From a virus, in the IMG/VR virus record IMGVR_UViG_3300028569_000071, positions 1 to 40,596 of that record: DNA of 40,596 nucleotides; one strand, given 5' to 3'. How positions within the stretch are numbered: the first letter of the stretch is position 1; the number at the start of each line of letters is the position of its first letter. Positions 1,609 through 12,920 of the stretch are shown here, piece by piece. The translations under genes and the position numbers were made by a program. The notes below the pieces were generated by a model. That model was not told the origin of the DNA. It worked only from the letters and a program-made list of their open reading frames with translations, and searched no databases.

Positions 1609-3234
1609 TTAGATAGTGTTAAGACCACTAACATAAATTTTTCCGTAAAATTCCGGACGTACCATTTTCTTGGCATATCTAGTCAACAGACCTTTTCTTG
1701 GAACGAAAGTATCTGGGTCATATACCAATGGAGTCATAATCAATGGGATGTATGGGGCAAATACAGCACCTGCTTCCAGGAACTGACCACCTCTGTAACC
1801 CATTAAGATCACATTCTCAGTCATATATGGATTCTTGTAAACATCATAGCGATTGTTTAACTGACCTGATTTTTGAACACCAAATGCATACTTGGACTTT
1901 GCAGCATCACCATCAGAAGTAGAAGCAAATCCTGGGATTGATTCTAAAACAGTAGCTACGCTTGGAGACAAGATCATGAAATTAGCACCTCCACGTAGAG
2001 TTTTCTGGTGGATAATGTTGCTTAATTTCTGCATTTTAGTTCCTAGAGTTTGGAACCACTGACCTTGTGAGTTATAATAACCTAAGTTAGAGTTAGTGTA
2101 ACCAGAATTACCTAGAGCTCTGTTGTTTTCAGCAGTCCAGTATTCAGTACCAGCGGCAGCTGAGTCAATCAACATATCTAAGATTTCAAGGTCAATCTCA
2201 AGAGCAATGTACTCACTCATAACAGAGGTAAGTTCTGCTTCAGCATCTAGAGCATGATAAGCATTCAAATCTTGAGCAAACTCAGGAGTCCAAACAGCTT
2301 TCAGTTTTCTAGTTTTAGCTACAATAGCGCTTGATTGCAATTTAACATTGATTTCAGGAATGCTAATTGTAGTGTTATTTGAGTTAAGATCAGTGTTACC
2401 TTCTTCAAAGTCACCTCTCTTGTTGTCTACTGGTTGTAGAGTAAAGAATACAGTTGCTACGTTAAGAGCTGAACCTGAACCTAAACCACTAAGGGCTACA
2501 AATTCTAAATTACCACCATCAATTTTAGTGAATGCAGGTAAAATATCAGCAGAAGTGATAGTAGCATTACCTGAACCTGAGATATAGAAACTACGAATAG
2601 CTTCAGCATCATAATTGGCTCCTAAAGAAGAGGTAGGAATTGAATATACTGAATAGCTAGTGAATGAAGAAGTAAAAGCTCCATCTGCATTGAAATCAGT
2701 AAACCAGTTAGCAGATGCAGTAGCATTGATAGCAGTTACTGAAGAGGTGTTGTTGATTGAGTAACCAAAACGACCTGCTCCGTATAAACCACCAGTGTTA
2801 GTGTTACCAAATGGATTATTTGCTGCTGGTCTATCACCATACATTGAAGTACCAGCACTAAATGGAGTTTTGTTAGAACCATACTGGAAGTCAAGGTAGA
2901 ATACTAGACCAGAAGGTAGATTCATAGGTTGTACAGAGACAAATTCTTTAGAAGAAATTTGACCGAACACCTTTCTTACCAATGGTAGAGCTACACCAGC
3001 CCATTGTTCACCAGTTCCAGCGGTAAAGGTTGCAGTACCACCAGTTTGTGAGGTTTCATTTAGAAGCTGTTTTGCTTGGTTTTCAAGGATCATTGCCATG
3101 TTGTTTTTGTCAGCTTCGGAGGCAAGTCCTTCAAGTAGGCCCGTTTTGGCCCACTTACGTGCTAATCTTTCAGCATCGTTTTGTACGATTTTATGCTGAT
3201 TAGCACTCTCTAATAGAGATTGTAATTGTGACAT
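1609..3234 (-). CDS. 23: Major capsid protein, T4 gp23-like
   Basis: The 541-aa product (T4 gp23 has 521) is the major head protein. Family signatures include VQPMNLPSGLVF (about residues 101-112), LRGGANFMILSP (in the region of residue 415), VYKNPYM followed by NVILMGYRG, and a C-terminal block TPLVYDPDTFVPRKGLLTRY, which all parallel conserved gp23 segments. T4 gp23 is matured by gp21 cleavage after residue 65 at an [L/I]-x-E site. Here LLNE ends at residue 60, directly before TSQTGGTATFTAGTGEQWA, so cleavage after Glu60 is the natural prediction. The leader has no Shine-Dalgarno sequence. A strong terminator follows the gene, and the scaffold gene lies 33 bases upstream. The identification is firm; the cleavage site is inferred by analogy. 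Confidence 0.96.
   Translation of the reverse strand: MSQLQSLLESANQHKIVQNDAERLARKWAKTGLLEGLASEADKNNMAMILENQAKQLLNETSQTGGTATFTAGTGEQWAGVALPLVRKVFGQISSKEFVSVQPMNLPSGLVFYLDFQYGSNKTPFSAGTSMYGDRPAANNPFGNTNTGGLYGAGRFGYSINNTSSVTAINATASANWFTDFNADGAFTSSFTSYSVYSIPTSSLGANYDAEAIRSFYISGSGNATITSADILPAFTKIDGGNLEFVALSGLGSGSALNVATVFFTLQPVDNKRGDFEEGNTDLNSNNTTISIPEINVKLQSSAIVAKTRKLKAVWTPEFAQDLNAYHALDAEAELTSVMSEYIALEIDLEILDMLIDSAAAGTEYWTAENNRALGNSGYTNSNLGYYNSQGQWFQTLGTKMQKLSNIIHQKTLRGGANFMILSPSVATVLESIPGFASTSDGDAAKSKYAFGVQKSGQLNNRYDVYKNPYMTENVILMGYRGGQFLEAGAVFAPYIPLIMTPLVYDPDTFVPRKGLLTRYAKKMVRPEFYGKIYVSGLNTI
3001..3054 (-). repeat. Shared post-cleavage arm motif, capsid copy
   Basis: This segment encodes capsid residues 61-78, beginning directly after the predicted protease site (LNE, 58-60). 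A closely matching segment occurs at 7289-7342 in another head-cluster gene: 13 of 19 residues are identical (xSxTGGxATFTxGTGxQxA), and the DNA is also similar. Confidence 0.7.
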
Positions 3235-3267
3235 ACTTTTAGGGTTTTGTTTGTTTAAAAATTAAAA

Positions 3268-4269
3268 TTAAATTCCGGCGATTTTCTTAAATCTAGCTAC
3301 CATTGCAGGATCTAAAATAGGATTAGATTGAGCAACTCTTGGAGCTACACCAGCGGATTTAGAAGCAAAGTTTAAATTTTCTTTGATTGGAGCTTTTTTC
3401 GGCTTCAAATTCTCAGATAATGATTCATAAACTAGTTTTACTTCTTTTACATTGGTTGCTTTGTCCATAGAGCTCAATACTTTCACCTTTTGAGATTCTG
3501 TTAAAGCACTAGCTTTGAAAATCTTGTTAGTGTAAAGTAACTTAGCATTCAGAAGATTAATTTCATTGATGTCTTGAGTAAGTTTCTGGATAGTAGCGTA
3601 GGCTTCTTCTAGTTCTTCTTTCATTTCATCTTTTTCTTCTTTCATGCCTTTTTTAGCTTTTTCTTTCATGTTTTTGTCATGACTAGCTTCAGCTAAGAGT
3701 TCATCAATGTCAACTTCTTCGTTTTCCATTTCTTCCTCTTCTTCCATGCCCTCACCGGCTTCTAACTCACCAGCTTGAACCATGTCTGTAATAACGTCCT
3801 CAATGAATTTTTTAAGATCTTCATCAGTCATGTTTTCTAAATCTAAAGTTTCAGCTTCCATGTCTTCATCAGACATTTCTTCTTCCTCAGATTCTTCTTC
3901 ATCACCTTCAGCCTCATTTAAATTCTCTTCAGTTGATTCTTCCTCGTCTAAACCTTCAAGTTCAGCTAGAAGTTCATCTAAATTAAATTCTTCTTCATCA
4001 AGTTCTACTTCGTCAAGGTCTTCAGAATAATCCATTCCTTCCTCCATTTCATCATCCATGTTATTCATGTCATAGGCTTCATCCATGTTATCCATGTCGT
4101 AAGCTTCTTCCATGTTGTCCCCATCTTCCATTTCCTGGATTTTAGCGGCAAACATAGATTTAAGTTGGGGAGTGAAAGCCTCTTCCAAAGCAGCCTTGGC
4201 ATTTGCAATAGCAGTTTCTTTAACCGCCTTTGCGTCAGCAATAGCTTCTTTTAGTAGTTTTCTGTCCAT
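3268..4269 (-). CDS. Prohead core / scaffold protein (gp22 position)
   Basis: This 333-aa, very acidic, Met- and Glu-rich protein sits between the prohead protease and the capsid gene, exactly where T4 encodes its scaffold gp22. It opens with an Ala/Lys-rich helix (from MDRKLLKEAI), has a long Asp/Glu-rich middle (about 45-195), then a predicted coiled coil (about 200-250). The C-terminus is basic and less charged, ending RFKKIAGI. Scaffolds of this type form the internal core on which the capsid assembles and are then degraded by the gp21 protease. Many [L/I]-x-E tripeptides (LKE at 6-8; LAE and LDE in the middle) would allow this. A 27-bp repeat lies at 4054-4119. Function is inferred from position and composition; sequence similarity to gp22 itself is not evident to me. 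Confidence 0.8.
   Translation of the reverse strand: MDRKLLKEAIADAKAVKETAIANAKAALEEAFTPQLKSMFAAKIQEMEDGDNMEEAYDMDNMDEAYDMNNMDDEMEEGMDYSEDLDEVELDEEEFNLDELLAELEGLDEEESTEENLNEAEGDEEESEEEEMSDEDMEAETLDLENMTDEDLKKFIEDVITDMVQAGELEAGEGMEEEEEMENEEVDIDELLAEASHDKNMKEKAKKGMKEEKDEMKEELEEAYATIQKLTQDINEINLLNAKLLYTNKIFKASALTESQKVKVLSSMDKATNVKEVKLVYESLSENLKPKKAPIKENLNFASKSAGVAPRVAQSNPILDPAMVARFKKIAGI
4054..4119 (-). repeat. 27-bp tandem repeat in the scaffold gene
   Basis: About 2.4 copies of a 27-bp unit encode DNMEEAYDM, DNMDEAYDM and NNMDD, at scaffold residues 51-72. The copies differ by a few bases. Copy number could vary between relatives without breaking the reading frame. Confidence 0.75.
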
Positions 4270-4395
4270 AATTAAATTTGTTTTTGGAAATACGTTTATT
4301 GGGAAACGTAATAAAAATTATTACTTATTAAATGCTATATAATGGATAGCATATTGGTCTAGGATATGTATGTATGGGGGGATTCAAAGTCAAAA

Positions 4396-4428
4396 AAAGT
4401 GCACTCTCTTTAAAAGAAGGTGCACTTT
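4396..4428 (-). terminator. Rho-independent terminator after the HNH gene
   Basis: A 9-bp perfect inverted repeat (AAAGTGCAC at 4396-4404, GTGCACTTT at 4420-4428) is followed on the minus strand by a T run (4392-4398 region). It lies just past the stop of the HNH gene and about 125 bases before the scaffold start. Scaffold and capsid would then need their own promoter in 4270-4395. It may have arrived with the HNH element. Confidence 0.8.
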
Positions 4429-4449
4429 AGTAAAAAAGATATGTTATAC

Positions 4450-5112
4450 CTAGAAAAGATTATATGATGATCCTTTTTTTCTATTATCTGATATAGTAAG
4501 GGGTTGAGTGTTTTTGTAATGGAAATATTTAAAACAATCTTCTTTATTTTGTATTAAAGCAAGGGGTTTAATATGATCAATTTCCCAATATACACCATGA
4601 TTATCCCAATTCATCTCAGGAGTAAATTGTTTTTCTATATGTTCTTTGTAAGTTTTAATATCACATCCTAAGTATTTTAATCCTGAGTGATTTTTAGTTA
4701 TATTATTTTTCTTTAAAATCTCGTTAACTCGTAATCTAATACAATATTTTAATTTAAATATAGGATCTGTTTGTTTTTTATGTTTAAAATATTTCAGTTG
4801 TTGTTTTGTTTTTTGTTGATACTCATTCCATTTTTTATTAAAACATGGTTTACAAGTAGAACTAACATTAAATCTTCCTTTTCCAGGTTTAAATTCTGAT
4901 AATAATAATTCTTGTTTACAGTTAGAACATATTTTGTACCCTTCTTTTAGATTTTCATTTAGACGAGGAGATTTTTTAGTATGGTAATGTTTGTTATGAT
5001 GGTTATGGCAACATTCTCTGCATTCACGTTGGTATCCATCTTTACAAGATTTATTTTTATTAAATTCTGTTAATTCTTTTATTTGTTTACATGTGGGACA
5101 TAATTTTGGCAT
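4450..5112 (-). CDS. HNH homing endonuclease with zinc-ribbon repeats
   Basis: This 220-aa protein has two Cys-pair zinc-binding repeats in its N-terminal half. The first is CPTC with the later CREC and CC (about 5-36). The second is CSNC with CKPC (about 62-90). A C-terminal HNH nuclease follows: WEIDHIKPLALI supplies the first His, NTQPLTISDN the Asn residues, and a basic NRKKGS tail completes the fold. This is the usual design of phage HNH homing endonucleases. It separates the protease gene from the scaffold gene, which are adjacent in T4, so it looks like an insertion into the head operon. Its own terminator follows at 4396-4428. The family call is firm; homing activity is inferred. Confidence 0.9.
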   Translation of the reverse strand: MPKLCPTCKQIKELTEFNKNKSCKDGYQRECRECCHNHHNKHYHTKKSPRLNENLKEGYKICSNCKQELLLSEFKPGKGRFNVSSTCKPCFNKKWNEYQQKTKQQLKYFKHKKQTDPIFKLKYCIRLRVNEILKKNNITKNHSGLKYLGCDIKTYKEHIEKQFTPEMNWDNHGVYWEIDHIKPLALIQNKEDCFKYFHYKNTQPLTISDNRKKGSSYNLF

Positions 5113-5161
5113 ATCTATATTTTATTATAAATATGCCAAGACTTTGAAAGAATGTGTTGGT

Positions 5162-5770
5162 TTAAAAAAGAGGACAATTTCCTTTGGAACAAAGGATATC
5201 TTTAATTATTTTGTCTAAGTTTGATTGGGTTCTGATTTGTTTGTTTTCACTTAGTGATTCTTTAATGGGATGCATCCAGGAGCCTGGATTTGATGGGGTA
5301 GATACAAAGTCAAAGCATAGTAAGTCAAAATCATCCTGTACCTCTTGAAGTTCTCCCATCGGTTGTAAACTACCCATTCCACGAGAAGATACTCCAACTT
5401 TAATACCACTACTAATTAATGCTTTTAATATGTTGCCTGATGGAGTTGGTAGAATTTCTATTTTACCTATGATATTATCTCCGTCCCACCAGAAATCAGT
5501 AATATTGTGAGATACATTTTTTAGGTTAATAATTTGGGAATCCGGGTGGTCTAGTTCACCTAATGCTCTGTTTTCTTTAACAGATTCAGCGTACTTGTTC
5601 ATTTCTCTTTCCCATAATGATCTACGATAGTATCTTCCGTTACCGTTTTTAATTTCAGCGGTGGCTAAAATACCTTCTACCAGGGGATTACCTCTTGGTG
5701 AGGTTTTACCCTCAAACAAAAGAGTACTTACTGGTTGGAATGTTTGTGTTTCTATCAGAAGATGTTTCAT
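5162..5770 (-). CDS. 21: Prohead core protease, T4 gp21-like
   Basis: The 202-aa product matches the T4 gp21 serine protease family, which cleaves scaffold, capsid and internal proteins during head maturation at [L/I]-x-E sites. Visible family motifs are GNGRYYRRSLW (44-54), GELDHPDS (71-78, catalytic His75), DFWWDGDNIIGKIEILPTPSG (92-112) and GVSSRG (126-131, candidate catalytic Ser128 or Ser129). The N-terminus carries two candidate self-cleavage sites, LIE (5-7) and LFE (18-20). Its start codon overlaps the upstream stop as ATGA, indicating translational coupling. In T4 the scaffold gene follows directly; here an HNH gene intervenes. Confidence 0.95.
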   Translation of the reverse strand: MKHLLIETQTFQPVSTLLFEGKTSPRGNPLVEGILATAEIKNGNGRYYRRSLWEREMNKYAESVKENRALGELDHPDSQIINLKNVSHNITDFWWDGDNIIGKIEILPTPSGNILKALISSGIKVGVSSRGMGSLQPMGELQEVQDDFDLLCFDFVSTPSNPGSWMHPIKESLSENKQIRTQSNLDKIIKDILCSKGNCPLF

Positions 5771-6933
5771 ATTTTATTCAATTCTTCTTTAATAATCAAA
5801 CGGATAGCTTTACGGATTTGGTTTTCACTCATTGGTCTTGAAGATTCAATTCTAAAATCATTAAATCCTCCTATAAAAGAAGCCAATGATTCTGAATTAG
5901 AAAGAGAGTTTGCTTTAACGTTTTTCCATGTATTACGTGTTACTTTTTCAAACGGTCCATATCCTCCTCCATAAGCCATATCTCCTATGTTAGCATCTAA
6001 CAGTTGGTTTTCAATGTCTACTAGAGTGTTTTCATTTAAAGATTCATTTAGTTGGAGTTTTTTTAATAATGAATCTTTTGTTGTGGTAGTGGGGTCAAAT
6101 GGCCCAAATTCTTTTCCGTCTTTAGTTAAGAAAACATAAGGTACTCTTCCTCCTGATTTTTTAGACTTTAAAGATAAATTATATTTTTTAGCAAAGCTTT
6201 TAATACCTGAGAGTCCTAATGTTGAGACTTCATTTAAATTAAACTCTCCATTAGATAGCATTTTTTTAGCTGTTTGAATATCCTCATCTGAGAATTGTTT
6301 TTTGGCTAATCCTCTTTTATCTAAATAAGCAATATTTTTATAGTATTGTTTATTTTTTAATGATTCATTTAAATTACCATACCCACTTGATTTATATTTT
6401 CCTTTTGCCTCTTTTGGAGTACCTAATCCAGGATGTTCTGTAGTATATCCTACACCTTTGATTCCAAATTGACCATCTTTAACATAATGGAGTTGATCTT
6501 TGGCTAAGTTTTTAGCTACAATAGATTTTAATTCTTCTACTGTTTTTTCCTCGTTTTTAGGATCTTGCATTTCAGTGTAGAATCCTTTTAGGAATTGCTC
6601 ACCGTAAACATTGTCAATATTTTTCTTATCTTTATAGTCAAAGCCTCTTGTTTCCATGTCAACCACTTCTTTAGTTGGTTTTTTTTCTTCAGCTTTAGCC
6701 TCATTTATGGATTCATTAAATAATTTAAACCAATCAGGTACTGTTGGTTGAGCTGAGACTATACCTAGCATACCTTCATTTAGGATGTTTCTGTATTTTA
6801 ATTCATTTACAGTTTCATTAAATCCATAATAATTAGGGATGTCAGGGAATTGAGTTTTGGCGCTTTTAACAAAAACGTCTTTGTTACCTTTTCCTTCTTT
6901 AATTAGGTTGTATTGGTTTTGAAGTGATTTCAT
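5767..6933 (-). CDS. Head-cluster protein with repeated LNE sites, unknown function
   Basis: I choose the ATG at 6933, giving 388 aa. The longer frame begins with TTG inside the upstream gene. The chosen start sits just after the upstream stop (TAATATG), with GGAGAAG about 9 bases before it. The N-terminus MKSLQNQYNLIKEGKGNK resembles a type I have seen in head-region proteins of related phages. It ends in IKE at 11-13, a possible gp21-type cleavage site. LNE occurs at 51, 188, 233, 295 and 299, and INE at 76, which is dense. A KSSGYGNLNE motif (181-190) resembles segments in two other proteins of this window. The C-terminus is an amphipathic helix, NQIRKAIRLIIKEELNKI. The gene lies between portal and protease, where T4 has gp67 and gp68 (prohead core proteins). 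An internal head protein is plausible but unproven. Confidence 0.8.
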   Translation of the reverse strand: MKSLQNQYNLIKEGKGNKDVFVKSAKTQFPDIPNYYGFNETVNELKYRNILNEGMLGIVSAQPTVPDWFKLFNESINEAKAEEKKPTKEVVDMETRGFDYKDKKNIDNVYGEQFLKGFYTEMQDPKNEEKTVEELKSIVAKNLAKDQLHYVKDGQFGIKGVGYTTEHPGLGTPKEAKGKYKSSGYGNLNESLKNKQYYKNIAYLDKRGLAKKQFSDEDIQTAKKMLSNGEFNLNEVSTLGLSGIKSFAKKYNLSLKSKKSGGRVPYVFLTKDGKEFGPFDPTTTTKDSLLKKLQLNESLNENTLVDIENQLLDANIGDMAYGGGYGPFEKVTRNTWKNVKANSLSNSESLASFIGGFNDFRIESSRPMSENQIRKAIRLIIKEELNKI

Positions 6934-6934
6934 A

Positions 6935-7384
6935 TTATTCTTCTCCTTTAATGATTTTTTCAATTTCAGTGATTAATTCTTGAACTAGGTCAGTAGGAAA
7001 TACTATACCAAATGATGTTGGATTATCATTATAATATTCTACCGTTTGATTTTTTGCATTTGATAATATAGGTAATAAAGCATTTATTCTTTTTTCTATT
7101 GAATCAAAAGCCTCAATCCTAGTTTGTTGAAATTTTTGGGCATCTGTTGGTTCTTGCTCATATAATTTTTTTACCTCTAGGCCTGATCCCTTAATTTTAT
7201 CAGGAACAGGTTTGAAACCTAGTTTATAGTAATAATTGCGGGCGGTACCTTTAGCGTTTTTATCTTTATTAAATGCAAATGGAGTAGCGTATTGACCCCC
7301 AGTTCCTGGGGTAAAAGTAGCACTACCACCAGTGGTAGATACTTCTTTAATTTTTTTATTTAATTTATATTTGTGCTTTTCCAT
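6935..7384 (-). CDS. Small head-cluster protein sharing the capsid arm motif
   Basis: This 149-aa protein has no recognised family. Residues 1-14 are a basic leader ending IKE, a [L/I]-x-E site. It is followed immediately by VSTTGGSATFTPGTGGQYA, which matches the capsid segment after its predicted cleavage site. The remainder is helical: a YYYKLGF patch near 52, then a C-terminal region with IEKRINALLPIL and LVQELITEIEKIIKGEE. It overlaps the upstream gene by 20 bases and ends one base before the next ATG, so it is part of the tightly packed head operon in the gp67/gp68 position. I infer that it is processed and packaged with, or binds, the shell. Confidence 0.8.
   Translation of the reverse strand: MEKHKYKLNKKIKEVSTTGGSATFTPGTGGQYATPFAFNKDKNAKGTARNYYYKLGFKPVPDKIKGSGLEVKKLYEQEPTDAQKFQQTRIEAFDSIEKRINALLPILSNAKNQTVEYYNDNPTSFGIVFPTDLVQELITEIEKIIKGEE
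7289..7342 (-). repeat. Shared post-cleavage arm motif, 149-aa protein copy
   Basis: This encodes residues 15-32 of the 149-aa protein, directly after IKE (12-14). It is the partner of the capsid copy at 3001-3054. Confidence 0.7.
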
Positions 7385-8279: not shown

Positions 8280-10148
8280 TTATTCTTTAATATTTTTTTC
8301 ATCTAACAACGATTTTGCATGTTGTTCTTCTTCAAATATTAATTTTTTATCAGGGAACTTCTTTTGTAAATCTTCTAAAGCCAATGGAGAGTTACCATTA
8401 AATGTAGGTTTTAAACTATTGTCTTTATCTTTTGATTTCATTCTTTTAGAACCAAGACGATCCATTCCCATAGGATCATTTTGAGTATTTATAAATGAAG
8501 CTTTTTCTTTTGGGCGGCCTAAAGGATTTTTTTCATCATACCCTTCAGGGACATTCAGATTACCGTTTTCATCATATTTTCCTTTACCATATAAAGAGGC
8601 TAAATCATGTGGTGTACCATAAGATTTACCTGTTTCAATAGGATCATTACCTTCTGATGCAATCTGAGCGTAACGGAATTTACGTTTAACATCTTCGGCA
8701 ATTAAATCTCTATATTCACTGTACATATCCTCACTAACATGAAATATATTTTCATAAACCCAGTCGGAAGGGAAAATATTGGCCTCAATGATTTGAGCGG
8801 CTAAATCCACTTTTTCTTTCATTAATGCTATCCTTTCTTGATCATAAATGATGGAAGGTGTAGTTAAAGAAAGTTCAAAATTGGTTAAGTTTTCATCCCT
8901 ATATCCTTGAACATATAGGTGAATTAAAGCAATTTTATATAGTTCAGATACTACAATTCTTTGAATACGTTCAATTGTGCGGGCAAATCTAACATCTTGG
9001 GCAGCTAATGTAGCTTTACCTTCAAGATTTTCATCATACCCCATGAATGCTTTAGGTACTTTAAGGGCAGCAAATAATTTATCCCTTAAATAATTAACGT
9101 CTTGAATACCATCCCATTGTAGTCCTGATAGAGTTTCAATTTTGGTGGCTGAGTCATTTCCTCTAACTGGAATGTAATAATCTTCTAGTAGGTTTTGCAT
9201 GTTAAACCTTAAATTATAATCTCCGGTTTGTGGGTCAGTATATGGTACTCGTTTTAGTTTAGAGATAGTTTTTTCCATAAATGTATCCACTTCATTTGGT
9301 GGTATAGAACCTACATTCATGTAATGAATACGTTTTTCCGGGGCGCGTACAATTCTATGAATTAACATAGCATCCTCCATCAACGCATATTGTTTATATA
9401 ATTTACGAGCAGGTTCAATATAGGAACGACCGTAAGGTAAAAAGTTCATATCTGTTAATAACCTAAAGTGTGCTACTTCATAGTTGTCAAATACAATATG
9501 ATTTTTGTTAGCATCACTACCTGGCAGGTTATAATAACCATATCCACTGGCTGAAAACCCCTCAGGAGTATAAACAAATCTTACTGATGATGGATTTTCT
9601 CTATCAAATCCTTCTTGTCTTTCAATATGGAACGCAGTGTATGGAACAACATTATATACACCAAATTTTTCAGAGATTTCTAGTTTTAAGAAAAAATCTC
9701 CGTATTTACACATGTTACGAATCCATGGCCATAAATTAAACTCTACATTCAATACATCATAAAACAGATTGTATAGAATTTTTTGAATATTTTCATCTGA
9801 ACTTCTAATTTGTAATACTTCACCAAAGTCATTCTTTAATGTACTTTCATCAGCTATAATATCTAAAGCAGATGCTATAATGGCATCAGTATCCATGGCA
9901 TCATATTCAGAATATAATGTTGGACGTAATACTTGATAATTAAAGTTAAATTGCTGCCCATATATTGAAGTTGGCTGGTTAGTGTAAATTCTATTAAATC
10001 TATCTACTAATGAGTTTGTTTCAAGTTCTCCAGATTGTTGGATTTTATTTATATCCATTATGTGGAGTTGATTTCCACCCACATTCCGTATGACTACGTC
10101 TGTAGAAAATAATTTTTTTAGTCTAGGAAATAGTCTTTTGTCTGCCAT
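8280..10148 (-). CDS. 20: Portal protein, T4 gp20-like
   Basis: This 622-aa protein (T4 gp20 has 524) is the dodecameric portal at the head vertex through which DNA is packaged. Family features include EYDAMDTDAIIASALDIIADE in the N-terminal third and WPWIRNMCKYGDFFLKLEI. A central block has ALMEDAMLIHRIVRAPEKRI, and LLEDYYIPVRG with TLSGLQWDGIQDVNYLRDKL corresponds to the gp20 'LEDYW..R' region. The C-terminal extension (from about residue 520) is polar and Asn/Lys/Gly-rich and accounts for the extra length. The start is preceded by an AT-rich leader without Shine-Dalgarno sequence. It lies directly downstream of the terminase gene. In T4 the tail sheath and tube genes lie between terminase and portal; they are absent from this position. 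Confidence 0.95.
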   Translation of the reverse strand: MADKRLFPRLKKLFSTDVVIRNVGGNQLHIMDINKIQQSGELETNSLVDRFNRIYTNQPTSIYGQQFNFNYQVLRPTLYSEYDAMDTDAIIASALDIIADESTLKNDFGEVLQIRSSDENIQKILYNLFYDVLNVEFNLWPWIRNMCKYGDFFLKLEISEKFGVYNVVPYTAFHIERQEGFDRENPSSVRFVYTPEGFSASGYGYYNLPGSDANKNHIVFDNYEVAHFRLLTDMNFLPYGRSYIEPARKLYKQYALMEDAMLIHRIVRAPEKRIHYMNVGSIPPNEVDTFMEKTISKLKRVPYTDPQTGDYNLRFNMQNLLEDYYIPVRGNDSATKIETLSGLQWDGIQDVNYLRDKLFAALKVPKAFMGYDENLEGKATLAAQDVRFARTIERIQRIVVSELYKIALIHLYVQGYRDENLTNFELSLTTPSIIYDQERIALMKEKVDLAAQIIEANIFPSDWVYENIFHVSEDMYSEYRDLIAEDVKRKFRYAQIASEGNDPIETGKSYGTPHDLASLYGKGKYDENGNLNVPEGYDEKNPLGRPKEKASFINTQNDPMGMDRLGSKRMKSKDKDNSLKPTFNGNSPLALEDLQKKFPDKKLIFEEEQHAKSLLDEKNIKE

Positions 10149-10184: not shown

Positions 10185-12920
10185 TTAGAGAAGCCAACGA
10201 ATGCTTTCATCTCTTCCTCCTACATTCATATTAAATGGGTTTTGATTATTATTACCTGAATAAGCACCTGAATATCCATGTTTATTACTGGATATATTAT
10301 TTAGGGCTGCTCTAGATAGATCTATACTTTGTTGTTGAAATTTCAATGATGTGTCTCTTAAATACATTCCTATACCAAAAGACATAACAAGGTCATCATT
10401 ATACCCTGTTTGAGCTTCTGGGCGGCCATTTTTCCATATAAATACTTTCATTTCCTCTAACAAACGTTTAGAGCGTATTATAACAGATCTGTCACCAATA
10501 TATTCTCTAAATTTATTGACCACAAGGGGACGTGTTTTTAGATTCATACTAAATCCAGGTACTGTGTTTGAAGAAGATTCATATTTATTAAAATAGGATT
10601 CATATGTATGGGCCTCAGATTTAGGGGCATAATATAAATTTCTATATCCTCGTTCAATGATAGCATCAATTGTGGACCAACCGATATTTGAATTTTCAAC
10701 TATAAGTAAAGCATTATTATATTCAGTGGCTAAACCTGTTAGAAAATAACCATATTCTTTTGGTGGTAATTGTCCCCTAAATTCAGCTACTTGAGTATTG
10801 CTTTCGATATCTACAACATGACATCCAGAAAAGTCCTTACCATCGCCCCTGGCTACATCAGCCATTACCATGTAATCTCTTGAGTAATCAGCGGGTTCCC
10901 ATATCCATAAGTTTTTATCTGCTCCTCTACGTTCAATAGGTTCTTGGATTGTAGTTTGGGATAAAAAGTCTATCCATTCAGCGTGGAATACAATATCCCC
11001 TGAGGTATTAAAGTCGCAATCACAATTATGTACGATACCATATTCTGTTACGTAGGTATGAGTATTTTCTACTTCTATATTAAATACTTGGATAGGAGTG
11101 TAAGTTTGTTCTAATTTTAGGCTTACATAAGGTTCATCAATAAATTCAAATCTAGAATTATAATTTGATTTTCCGGTTGTGTTTATACGACTCCAGTTTT
11201 GAATTCTTTTACTAAATATTTTTTCATCTGAATCGATTTGACTATTAGTCCATGTTAAAGTATAATTTGGTTTCCATTTACTATTTCGTGGATTTTTTGC
11301 TTTACCTTGTTTTAATGTAACATTATGTATTCCTAAAATATTAGAGATATACAAAACATCATAAATTAGATATTTGGATGTTAATAATAACTGGATATTA
11401 TATTTCGATTGGATAAGTCCATCTCCTATCAATACTCCATCCATTATTCCTCTTAATGTTTCTTTATTTGATATAGAATATAAAAATTGACTTATATGTT
11501 TTTCATAACATTTTTCCCCACCCTGAATGCATAATTTTATAAAGTTATGAAAAATTTGATCTTTAATATAAAGCTTACTACTACCTTCCCATATTTTAGA
11601 AGTATAATATGAGAAACGATTTATATTAAATTTTTCTAATAAAATTCTTTCTAATTCAACAGGAAATCCGTTTCTTTCTGTTTTCCCGTTAAAAGAAAAT
11701 TCTACTTTATTTTTAGATAAAGATCCTTCTGATAGAAAACATCCTATAAGGAAACCCAGATCATAATCCACATCAATATATCTGTTAATTTTACTTGTTT
11801 TAGTTAACCATATATAATCATTATCTTTTTTTAATGGAAAACTTGATGGGGAATTAGATGAAATATACTCGCCTAAATCTATTTGTTTTATAGGTTTATC
11901 ATATTCATTTATTTTAGGGAAGTATTTAACTTTATTTTGGGTATTAATTATAGATGATATTTCCTCCCATTCATTATTTGTGTTCAGAAATGGATGGTTT
12001 AGTGTAGTATATTTTTGAATATTGTTTAACCCACCTTTTATTTCTACTGGGGTATCTTCTGTATGATTGAATTTTCTAAGGACAGGATTATATGTTCCGT
12101 CGTGGCTTAAAACTAGATCTCCTATCTCTATATCTTTAATCTGTTTAGGACCGTATTTAGTATATATAATAGTATCTCCACTAAAACATTCTTGGGCCGC
12201 TAGTTTAGGATCTCCTAAAAGTTCATCTTGACGTTTTCTCCAAGCCTCATTTCGTTCTGGATGTACATACCAAGGTAGTTTAATAGGTAAAAAGTCATTT
12301 TCTTGTGACTCTGCTCTTACCCATGTTTTATGGAACCAATTACCAACACCATAAGGAGTAGATAATACAACTGCCCCTCCACCAGTGGCTAAGGTTTGTT
12401 GTGCTGAGGCCCATATTTCATCAATACCTTCAATAAAGGCAGCTTCATCTATTATTAACATAGATACAGCCTCTGATCTACCGGAATCGGATGCGGCTGA
12501 GACTGCTTTAACTTGGGAACCGTTTGATAAACGTAGTGTTAATTTATTATTTTCATCTGCTGGGATTCTAAGCCAAGATGGTAAATTTTCATACATGAAT
12601 TTTACCTTGGTAACCATGTTTTTGGCTGTTTCCTGTTTTGTGGCTATACAGAGTACATTTTTGTCTTTATGGAATAACATTAACCATAAAGAATATCCTG
12701 CTACTAATGTTGAAATACCTAACTGACGAGATTTTAAAACTACAGAATAGGGATTATCCTTCCATAAATTCAAAACTTTATCTTGGAAAGGATATAAGTT
12801 AAATAAAACTCGTCCTCTTGTTGGGTTTTGGATGTAACAATATTTTCGCATGAAGTGAGCAGGGTCACCCGCGCACTTAACATATTCCTGCCGGATTATA
12901 TCTTTTATGTCAGTAGGCAT
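10185..12920 (-). CDS. 17: Terminase large subunit (gp17-like) interrupted by an intein
   Basis: The 911-aa precursor contains a 388-aa intein (residues 245-632). Splicing would give a 523-aa terminase, the ATP-driven DNA packaging motor and headful nuclease. The ATPase half shows SRQLGIST (64-71) at the Walker A position and LIIDEA (155-160) as Walker B. T4 has SRQLGKTT, so the P-loop lysine is replaced by Ile here. The nuclease half shows MADVARGDGKD (D688), LIVENSN (E742) and GYNDDLV (D842/D843), the expected acidic triad. The extein joins as LAAQE followed by CDCDF, just before the nuclease domain. No small terminase subunit is recognised nearby. Confidence 0.96.
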   Translation of the reverse strand: MPTDIKDIIRQEYVKCAGDPAHFMRKYCYIQNPTRGRVLFNLYPFQDKVLNLWKDNPYSVVLKSRQLGISTLVAGYSLWLMLFHKDKNVLCIATKQETAKNMVTKVKFMYENLPSWLRIPADENNKLTLRLSNGSQVKAVSAASDSGRSEAVSMLIIDEAAFIEGIDEIWASAQQTLATGGGAVVLSTPYGVGNWFHKTWVRAESQENDFLPIKLPWYVHPERNEAWRKRQDELLGDPKLAAQECFSGDTIIYTKYGPKQIKDIEIGDLVLSHDGTYNPVLRKFNHTEDTPVEIKGGLNNIQKYTTLNHPFLNTNNEWEEISSIINTQNKVKYFPKINEYDKPIKQIDLGEYISSNSPSSFPLKKDNDYIWLTKTSKINRYIDVDYDLGFLIGCFLSEGSLSKNKVEFSFNGKTERNGFPVELERILLEKFNINRFSYYTSKIWEGSSKLYIKDQIFHNFIKLCIQGGEKCYEKHISQFLYSISNKETLRGIMDGVLIGDGLIQSKYNIQLLLTSKYLIYDVLYISNILGIHNVTLKQGKAKNPRNSKWKPNYTLTWTNSQIDSDEKIFSKRIQNWSRINTTGKSNYNSRFEFIDEPYVSLKLEQTYTPIQVFNIEVENTHTYVTEYGIVHNCDCDFNTSGDIVFHAEWIDFLSQTTIQEPIERRGADKNLWIWEPADYSRDYMVMADVARGDGKDFSGCHVVDIESNTQVAEFRGQLPPKEYGYFLTGLATEYNNALLIVENSNIGWSTIDAIIERGYRNLYYAPKSEAHTYESYFNKYESSSNTVPGFSMNLKTRPLVVNKFREYIGDRSVIIRSKRLLEEMKVFIWKNGRPEAQTGYNDDLVMSFGIGMYLRDTSLKFQQQSIDLSRAALNNISSNKHGYSGAYSGNNNQNPFNMNVGGRDESIRWLL
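11025..12188 (-). mobile_element. Intein with LAGLIDADG homing endonuclease, in the terminase
   Basis: The 388-aa insert begins with Cys245 (CFSGDTIIYT, splicing block A) and ends VENTHTYVTEYGIVHN at residue 632 (blocks F and G). It is followed by Cys633 as the +1 nucleophile. The block B-like TLNHPFL lies at about 306-312. Two LAGLIDADG-type helices flank the endonuclease core: LGFLIGCFLSEG (388-399, Glu in the catalytic position) and LRGIMDGVLIGDG (489-501, Asp500). All residues needed for splicing are present, so it appears active. Both boundaries were checked against the DNA. Confidence 0.95.

Follow-up and report, generated by a model that had tools for sequence, protein, structure and literature searches.

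Two proteins encoded close together in this phage, the major capsid protein and a small protein of 149 residues, carry a similar stretch of 19 residues directly behind a predicted protease site, and the locus raises the question of what a second protein would do with a copy of the capsid's own arm. The window, by which we mean the whole stretch of 40,596 nucleotides that was analyzed, encodes both proteins on the minus strand, and their parts are the following.

1609 to 3234, minus strand: precursor of the major capsid protein, Gp23 family, 541 aa (PF07068, E 5e-74; phrog_138, E 7e-70)
3055 to 3234, minus strand: capsid propeptide, residues 1-60, with the predicted cleavage site LNE (58-60) at its end
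2998 to 3054, minus strand: capsid arm motif TSQTGGTATFTAGTGEQWA, residues 61-79, the predicted new N-terminus and counterpart of the T4 N-fist region
6935 to 7384, minus strand: small protein of 149 aa, module A fused to module B, without a convincing known family
7343 to 7384, minus strand: small-protein propeptide, residues 1-14, with the predicted cleavage site IKE (12-14) at its end
7286 to 7342, minus strand: small-protein arm motif VSTTGGSATFTPGTGGQYA, residues 15-33, a copy of the capsid arm
6938 to 7159, minus strand: module B, residues about 76-149, probably helical and in many relatives a gene of its own of about 85 aa

An earlier note on this DNA had pointed out a shared motif, 13 of 19 residues identical, behind LNE (58-60) in the capsid protein and IKE (12-14) in its neighbor, and both the positions and the identity were confirmed when capsid residues 61-79 were aligned with residues 15-33 of the small protein. 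The pair of arms reached a BLOSUM62 score of 66, compared with a mean of -0.9 and a maximum of 53 in 300,000 motif shuffles. When the window was scanned in six frames with either motif, the best other place scored 29 (self-scores of the motifs, 100-102), and a search of the whole record with the small protein returned the capsid arm as the second match (E 4.7e-4). No third bearer of the motif was found in the head blocks or in 13 long records, and no copy of the capsid arm was found near gp23 in nine other T4-like loci (T4, KVP40, Det7, two cyanophages, two Stenotrophomonas phages, Vibrio K353, and phiKT1024). The capsid protein matched the Gp23 family PF07068 with 250 bits (curated cut-off, 24.4). 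Neither the small protein nor 77 of its relatives had a convincing family match in PHROGs or Pfam, and a comparison with the PDB likewise gave nothing convincing, the best match being a designed helical bundle (E 0.008) in the module B part. Module A consists of the propeptide, the motif, TPxAF, and YYYKLGFKPV; in relatives the small protein is often split into two adjacent genes, one for each module, which are fused in the window.

The order of the genes in the block is portal, a 292-aa protein, the small protein, a 398-aa protein, protease, an HNH gene, a gp22-like protein, and capsid, which is close to the T4 order 20-67-68-21-22-23. The other members that bear on the question are given below.

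5162 to 5770, minus strand: prohead protease of the gp21 type, peptidase S77 (PF03420, E 7e-30; phrog_207, E 3.5e-60), the presumed cleaving enzyme
3268 to 4269, minus strand: gp22-like acidic scaffold protein, assigned by position and composition
5767 to 6963, minus strand: 398-aa head-block protein without the motif, role unassigned
8280 to 10148, minus strand: portal protein of the gp20 type (PF07230, E 1.5e-65)

The protease gene, whose product matched PF03420 with 104 bits (curated cut-off, 27), thus sits between the genes of the capsid and the small protein. The gp22-like protein had no family match in PHROGs or Pfam; a comparable acidic protein occupies its place in Flavobacterium phage immuto and Microcystis phage Mel-JY01. 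In a tree of capsid proteins, that of the window grouped with RM378, immuto, and Mel-JY01 and was separated from T4, KVP40, and the cyanophages, with a 100/100 split for this Far-T4 grouping and RM378 on a long branch. The Far-T4 side is as described earlier (PMC4360716); the small protein seems not to have been treated in that paper, whose main text makes no mention of prohead, gp67, gp68, or gp24. A gene between portal and protease is also what T4 has in 67 and 68, and this position favors the explanation of the small protein as a gp67- or gp68-like core protein, in which the arm region would bind the core partner of the capsid arm (such as gp22) before cleavage and the pieces would then leave the head. 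We regard this explanation as quite unlikely. Neither gp67 nor gp68 has such a motif next to T4 gp23 or one in common with the capsid arm, and sequence homology between these proteins and the small protein was not detected.

T4 gp21 cuts by an L/I-x-E rule with few determinants beyond these residues (PMC9026906), and T4 gp23 loses 65 residues (PMC9958956). Both sites in the window, LNE and IKE, conform to the rule, and by analogy with T4 we infer that both proteins are cut there; no proteomic study of immuto or Mel-JY01 virions came up in the literature searched. To cover relatives, we used 341 related loci from the RM378/Far-T4 side of the T4-like phages and widened the rule to V and M. Three of the 201 distinct module A proteins scored were cut off by contig ends, and all of the 198 that remained scorable had [LIVM]-x-E directly before the motif (background, 2.1% per position), as all 151 distinct capsid arms of relatives directly followed [LVI]-x-E, although the proteins in both counts are mutually related and do not represent independent events. 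The earlier note had named relatives with the motif away from a cleavage site as a refutation of its reading, and none appeared among the scorable proteins of this sample. The nearest to an exception was a pair of loci (L082/L095) with four extra residues, in which VNE lies four residues further upstream. The small-protein propeptides, meanwhile, are wholly different from one another, with lengths of 12 to about 390 residues and at least two unrelated classes. The first small-protein profile included some propeptide columns, whereas a control profile began behind the motif and saw neither motif nor propeptide. Nearly all of its 147 matches had [LIVM]xE 9-23 residues upstream, mostly at 11 or 19-22, which are the lengths of the short and the long motif.

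Most of the control-profile matches with the site at 6-7 residues belong to a different element. Longer relatives of the small protein (e.g., L086 7170-8084, L109 4650-5231, and L190 7170-7844) have a second conserved segment, PGATLGxGPKA ... YxKxFxYKLV, which follows another cleavage-like site in 61 of 77 proteins, and they look as if they were cut into two similar pieces. Such a second site would fit the fragmentation of a core protein. However, conservation sets in immediately after the cut and the propeptide varies freely, which speaks for a role after cleavage and against the core-protein explanation.

The position directly behind the cut in both proteins is also what would be expected if the motif were an extended gp21 recognition site beyond the cut, needed to find two substrates and without a later role. 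This explanation has a precedent in phage 80alpha, where the capsid protein, the scaffold, and L27 have a common conserved sequence at the Prp site (PMC5744158). We consider it unlikely nonetheless: no other head-block protein has the motif, although the gp22- and gp67/68-like proteins should be substrates, known gp21 sites have few determinants beyond L/I-x-E (PMC9026906), and the variable insertions inside the motif are hard to reconcile with a protease pocket. As in the window, sequence at a maturation cleavage site is common to the capsid protein of 80alpha and to another head protein; there, the common stretch was described as the sequence of the protease site, whereas in the window it lies behind the cut and the propeptide is free except for [LIVM]xE.

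By position, the capsid arm is the counterpart of the N-fist of T4 gp23*, as judged from an alignment with T4 gp23 that pertains to the capsid arm only: in both, the residues directly behind the gp21 cut precede the first helix of the capsid domain. In T4, the N-fist comprises residues 66-91 of gp23*, touches four subunits, and becomes ordered upon head expansion; in the five portal-facing subunits it is disordered (PMC9958956, PMC7136217). It is freed by maturation and contacts neighboring subunits. The window's arm is shorter than the N-fist and has another sequence, and T4 has the arm in the capsid protein only, with no second copy near the capsid gene.

We followed the relation between the two arms across 82 distinct long-motif genomes. 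The small-protein arm scored 0.540 against the capsid arm of its own genome and 0.395 against the arms of other genomes (z 13.9; 0 of 20,000 permutations). The partial correlation of the arm distances given the gp21 distance was 0.49 (0 of 2,000), permutation only within gp21 clusters gave z values of 7.0 to 14.1 (0 of 5,000), and among disjoint nearest pairs, the own pairing won 26 to 13 (Wilcoxon p 0.002). Examples of such pairs are MNTISSNSGFTSGTEGENY with TNVISTNSYFTSGTEGENW (L308), GGGNSFSSQAGAGAQY with AVGNSFSAQAGAGAQW (L304), and SGVGGGPGAGGFQVGQG with SSVGGGSGYGNFSVGQG (L076). The arms tracked each other (r 0.54) better than they tracked the protease (0.40 and 0.28), contrary to what a recognition site for that enzyme would predict. 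In a window-by-window scan over the head-block proteins, the capsid arm was among the two best correlates of the small-protein arm. The correlation between the arms was 0.46 given gp21 and the capsid body, while that of the small-protein arm with the capsid body given the capsid arm was 0.02; the remainder of the capsid protein thus does not account for the match.

Chance or low complexity was excluded as the source of the match for the long form, with 78 of 82 long-form pairs above composition shuffles at z > 3. The same count speaks against the explanation that the likeness reflects ancestry or composition only, that is, that both arms are Gly/Ser/Thr-rich flexible tails that serve no purpose today and may go back to an ancient gene fusion. 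Gly, Ser, and Thr do abound in both motifs, and resemblance is lacking in the short forms of the motif, but the match is genome specific even among close kin and the codons bear no sign of recent copying, and we consider this explanation very unlikely. At identical arm residues, codons agreed in 49.8% of cases compared with 51.9% expected from codon usage, so that the likeness is maintained by selection at the protein level and not by DNA copying; gene conversion and recent duplication were ruled out by the same comparison. It is against the protease-site and the ancestry explanations that the covariation counts most strongly.

One further part of the capsid protein changed together with the arms.

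2308 to 2457, minus strand: capsid residues 260-309, which covary with both arms, a candidate docking site

This segment correlated with both arms (0.50 and 0.47) and with each of them given the other (0.36 and 0.31); its selection by a scan of windows over related genomes makes it no more than a candidate. From its place before the conserved KTRKLKAVWTPEFAQDL stretch, it may be the exit of the E-loop, and if so it would fit the arrangement in 80alpha, in which the mature N-arm has a strand beneath the E-loop of a neighboring subunit (PMC5744158). The like-with-like matching of residues within genomes would also be expected if the small-protein arm bound the capsid arm itself, e.g., as a matching strand, instead of the groove of that arm. 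We think such pairing improbable, as both arms covary with segment 260-309, each given the other, and a shared groove fits this better.

The resemblance of the arms did not extend to all relatives. In 61 of 143 distinct scored pairs (about 43%), the small-protein motif was short (STSGAAGAYNTPYAF type) or aberrant, with a median z of 0.5 against the capsid arm, and therefore the mimicry is not universal. Immuto is among the phages whose small protein has the short form. The idea of a docking arm, put forward in the earlier note, is partly supported: it gains from the covariation of the arms within genomes and of both with one capsid segment, while these 61 pairs show hardly any resemblance. Four loci (L311, L314, L328, and L334) have a shrunken motif in which LEE, VDE, or LDE is followed by a few acidic residues or Gly and then by G[IM]GYMTPxAF; they retain the cleavage-type site and have lost the Gly/Ser/Thr stretch. 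In the small proteins of L054 and L057, natural deletions bring the motif nearly up to NYYYKLGF, and the TPFAFNPNKK link is gone. L074 and L075 have no small-protein gene between the homologues of the 292-aa and 398-aa genes, despite a capsid arm of the usual long form, and a search of the record of the 142-kb relative found the gene nowhere else.

The joint change of the two arms between genomes suggests that the small protein may attach to the shell by presenting its arm as if it were the capsid's. We infer its cleavage, its docking, its place on the particle, and its structural role, and we rate as a little better than even the reading that the 149-aa protein is a head protein with a copy of its own capsid's arm, a mimic of the N-fist that would be unmasked by maturation and dock on the shell. 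Both proteins would enter the prohead as precursors, and the gp21-type protease would cut each after [LIVM]-x-E, so that both arms would become free N-termini in the same step. The capsid arm would insert into a groove on neighboring subunits, possibly near the putative E-loop exit at residues 260-309, and the small-protein arm would take the same kind of groove where the capsid arm is absent, the likeliest places for this being around the portal vertex or at the pentamers. The docked arm would then tie the tail of the small protein, i.e., the YYYKLGFKPV segment and module B, to the shell. At the portal vertex, a pentamer is missing. Additionally, all 13 relatives tested (L124, L155, L167, L170, L178, L183, L335, L074, L086, L153, L103, L116, and L117, two of which are complete isolate genomes) had a single Gp23-family gene and no gp24, whereas T4 has two, and because of this the small protein is perhaps placed at the vertices. 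As a tentative and rather doubtful extension, the system could be a two-part maturation switch, in which the capsid and the small protein expose the same docking arm in a single protease step, the arm in trans plugs sites left empty by the symmetry of the shell (portal vertex and pentamers) in phages without a gp24 vertex protein, and arm and groove coevolve as a genome-specific lock and key. It counts against the mimic reading that the 142-kb relative, as well as T4 and other T4-like loci, manages without the small protein.

A capsid-binding motif common to two proteins is already known from CpmB of SaPI1 and the scaffold of 80alpha, which share an RIIK motif and bind the same place on the capsid protein (PMC5644958); docking in the window would be of this kind. 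The RIIK motif, by contrast, sits at the C-terminus and does its work in the procapsid without exposure by cleavage, and neither of its bearers is the capsid protein. The literature searched, which included few subscription journals, contained no example of a second protein that bears a copy of the capsid's own maturation arm and has it unmasked by the protease that acts on the capsid. If the mimic reading is true, the phage would use its capsid arm in trans, having copied its own maturation arm to a second protein to fill capsid sites, which would offer a possible answer to how relatives of T4 handle the vertices or the portal vertex without gp24 and would for the first time assign a role to a nameless head protein from a group of phages that is widespread in water. 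For direct tests of lock-and-key specificity in capsids, nature provides more than 80 arm pairs, to which the candidate groove can be added.

Three other reading frames in and around the head block, all on the minus strand, also stand out. A probable homing-type endonuclease gene of 220 aa with zinc-finger and HNH-like features (4450-5112) lies between the protease and gp22-like genes, and another of 445 aa (172-1509) lies directly behind the capsid gene. In the terminase-like reading frame of 911 aa (10185-12920), an apparent intein splits the terminase sequence, with a Cys-start block, CFSGDTIIYTKYGPKQIKD, and an end block, HTYVTEYGIVHNC.
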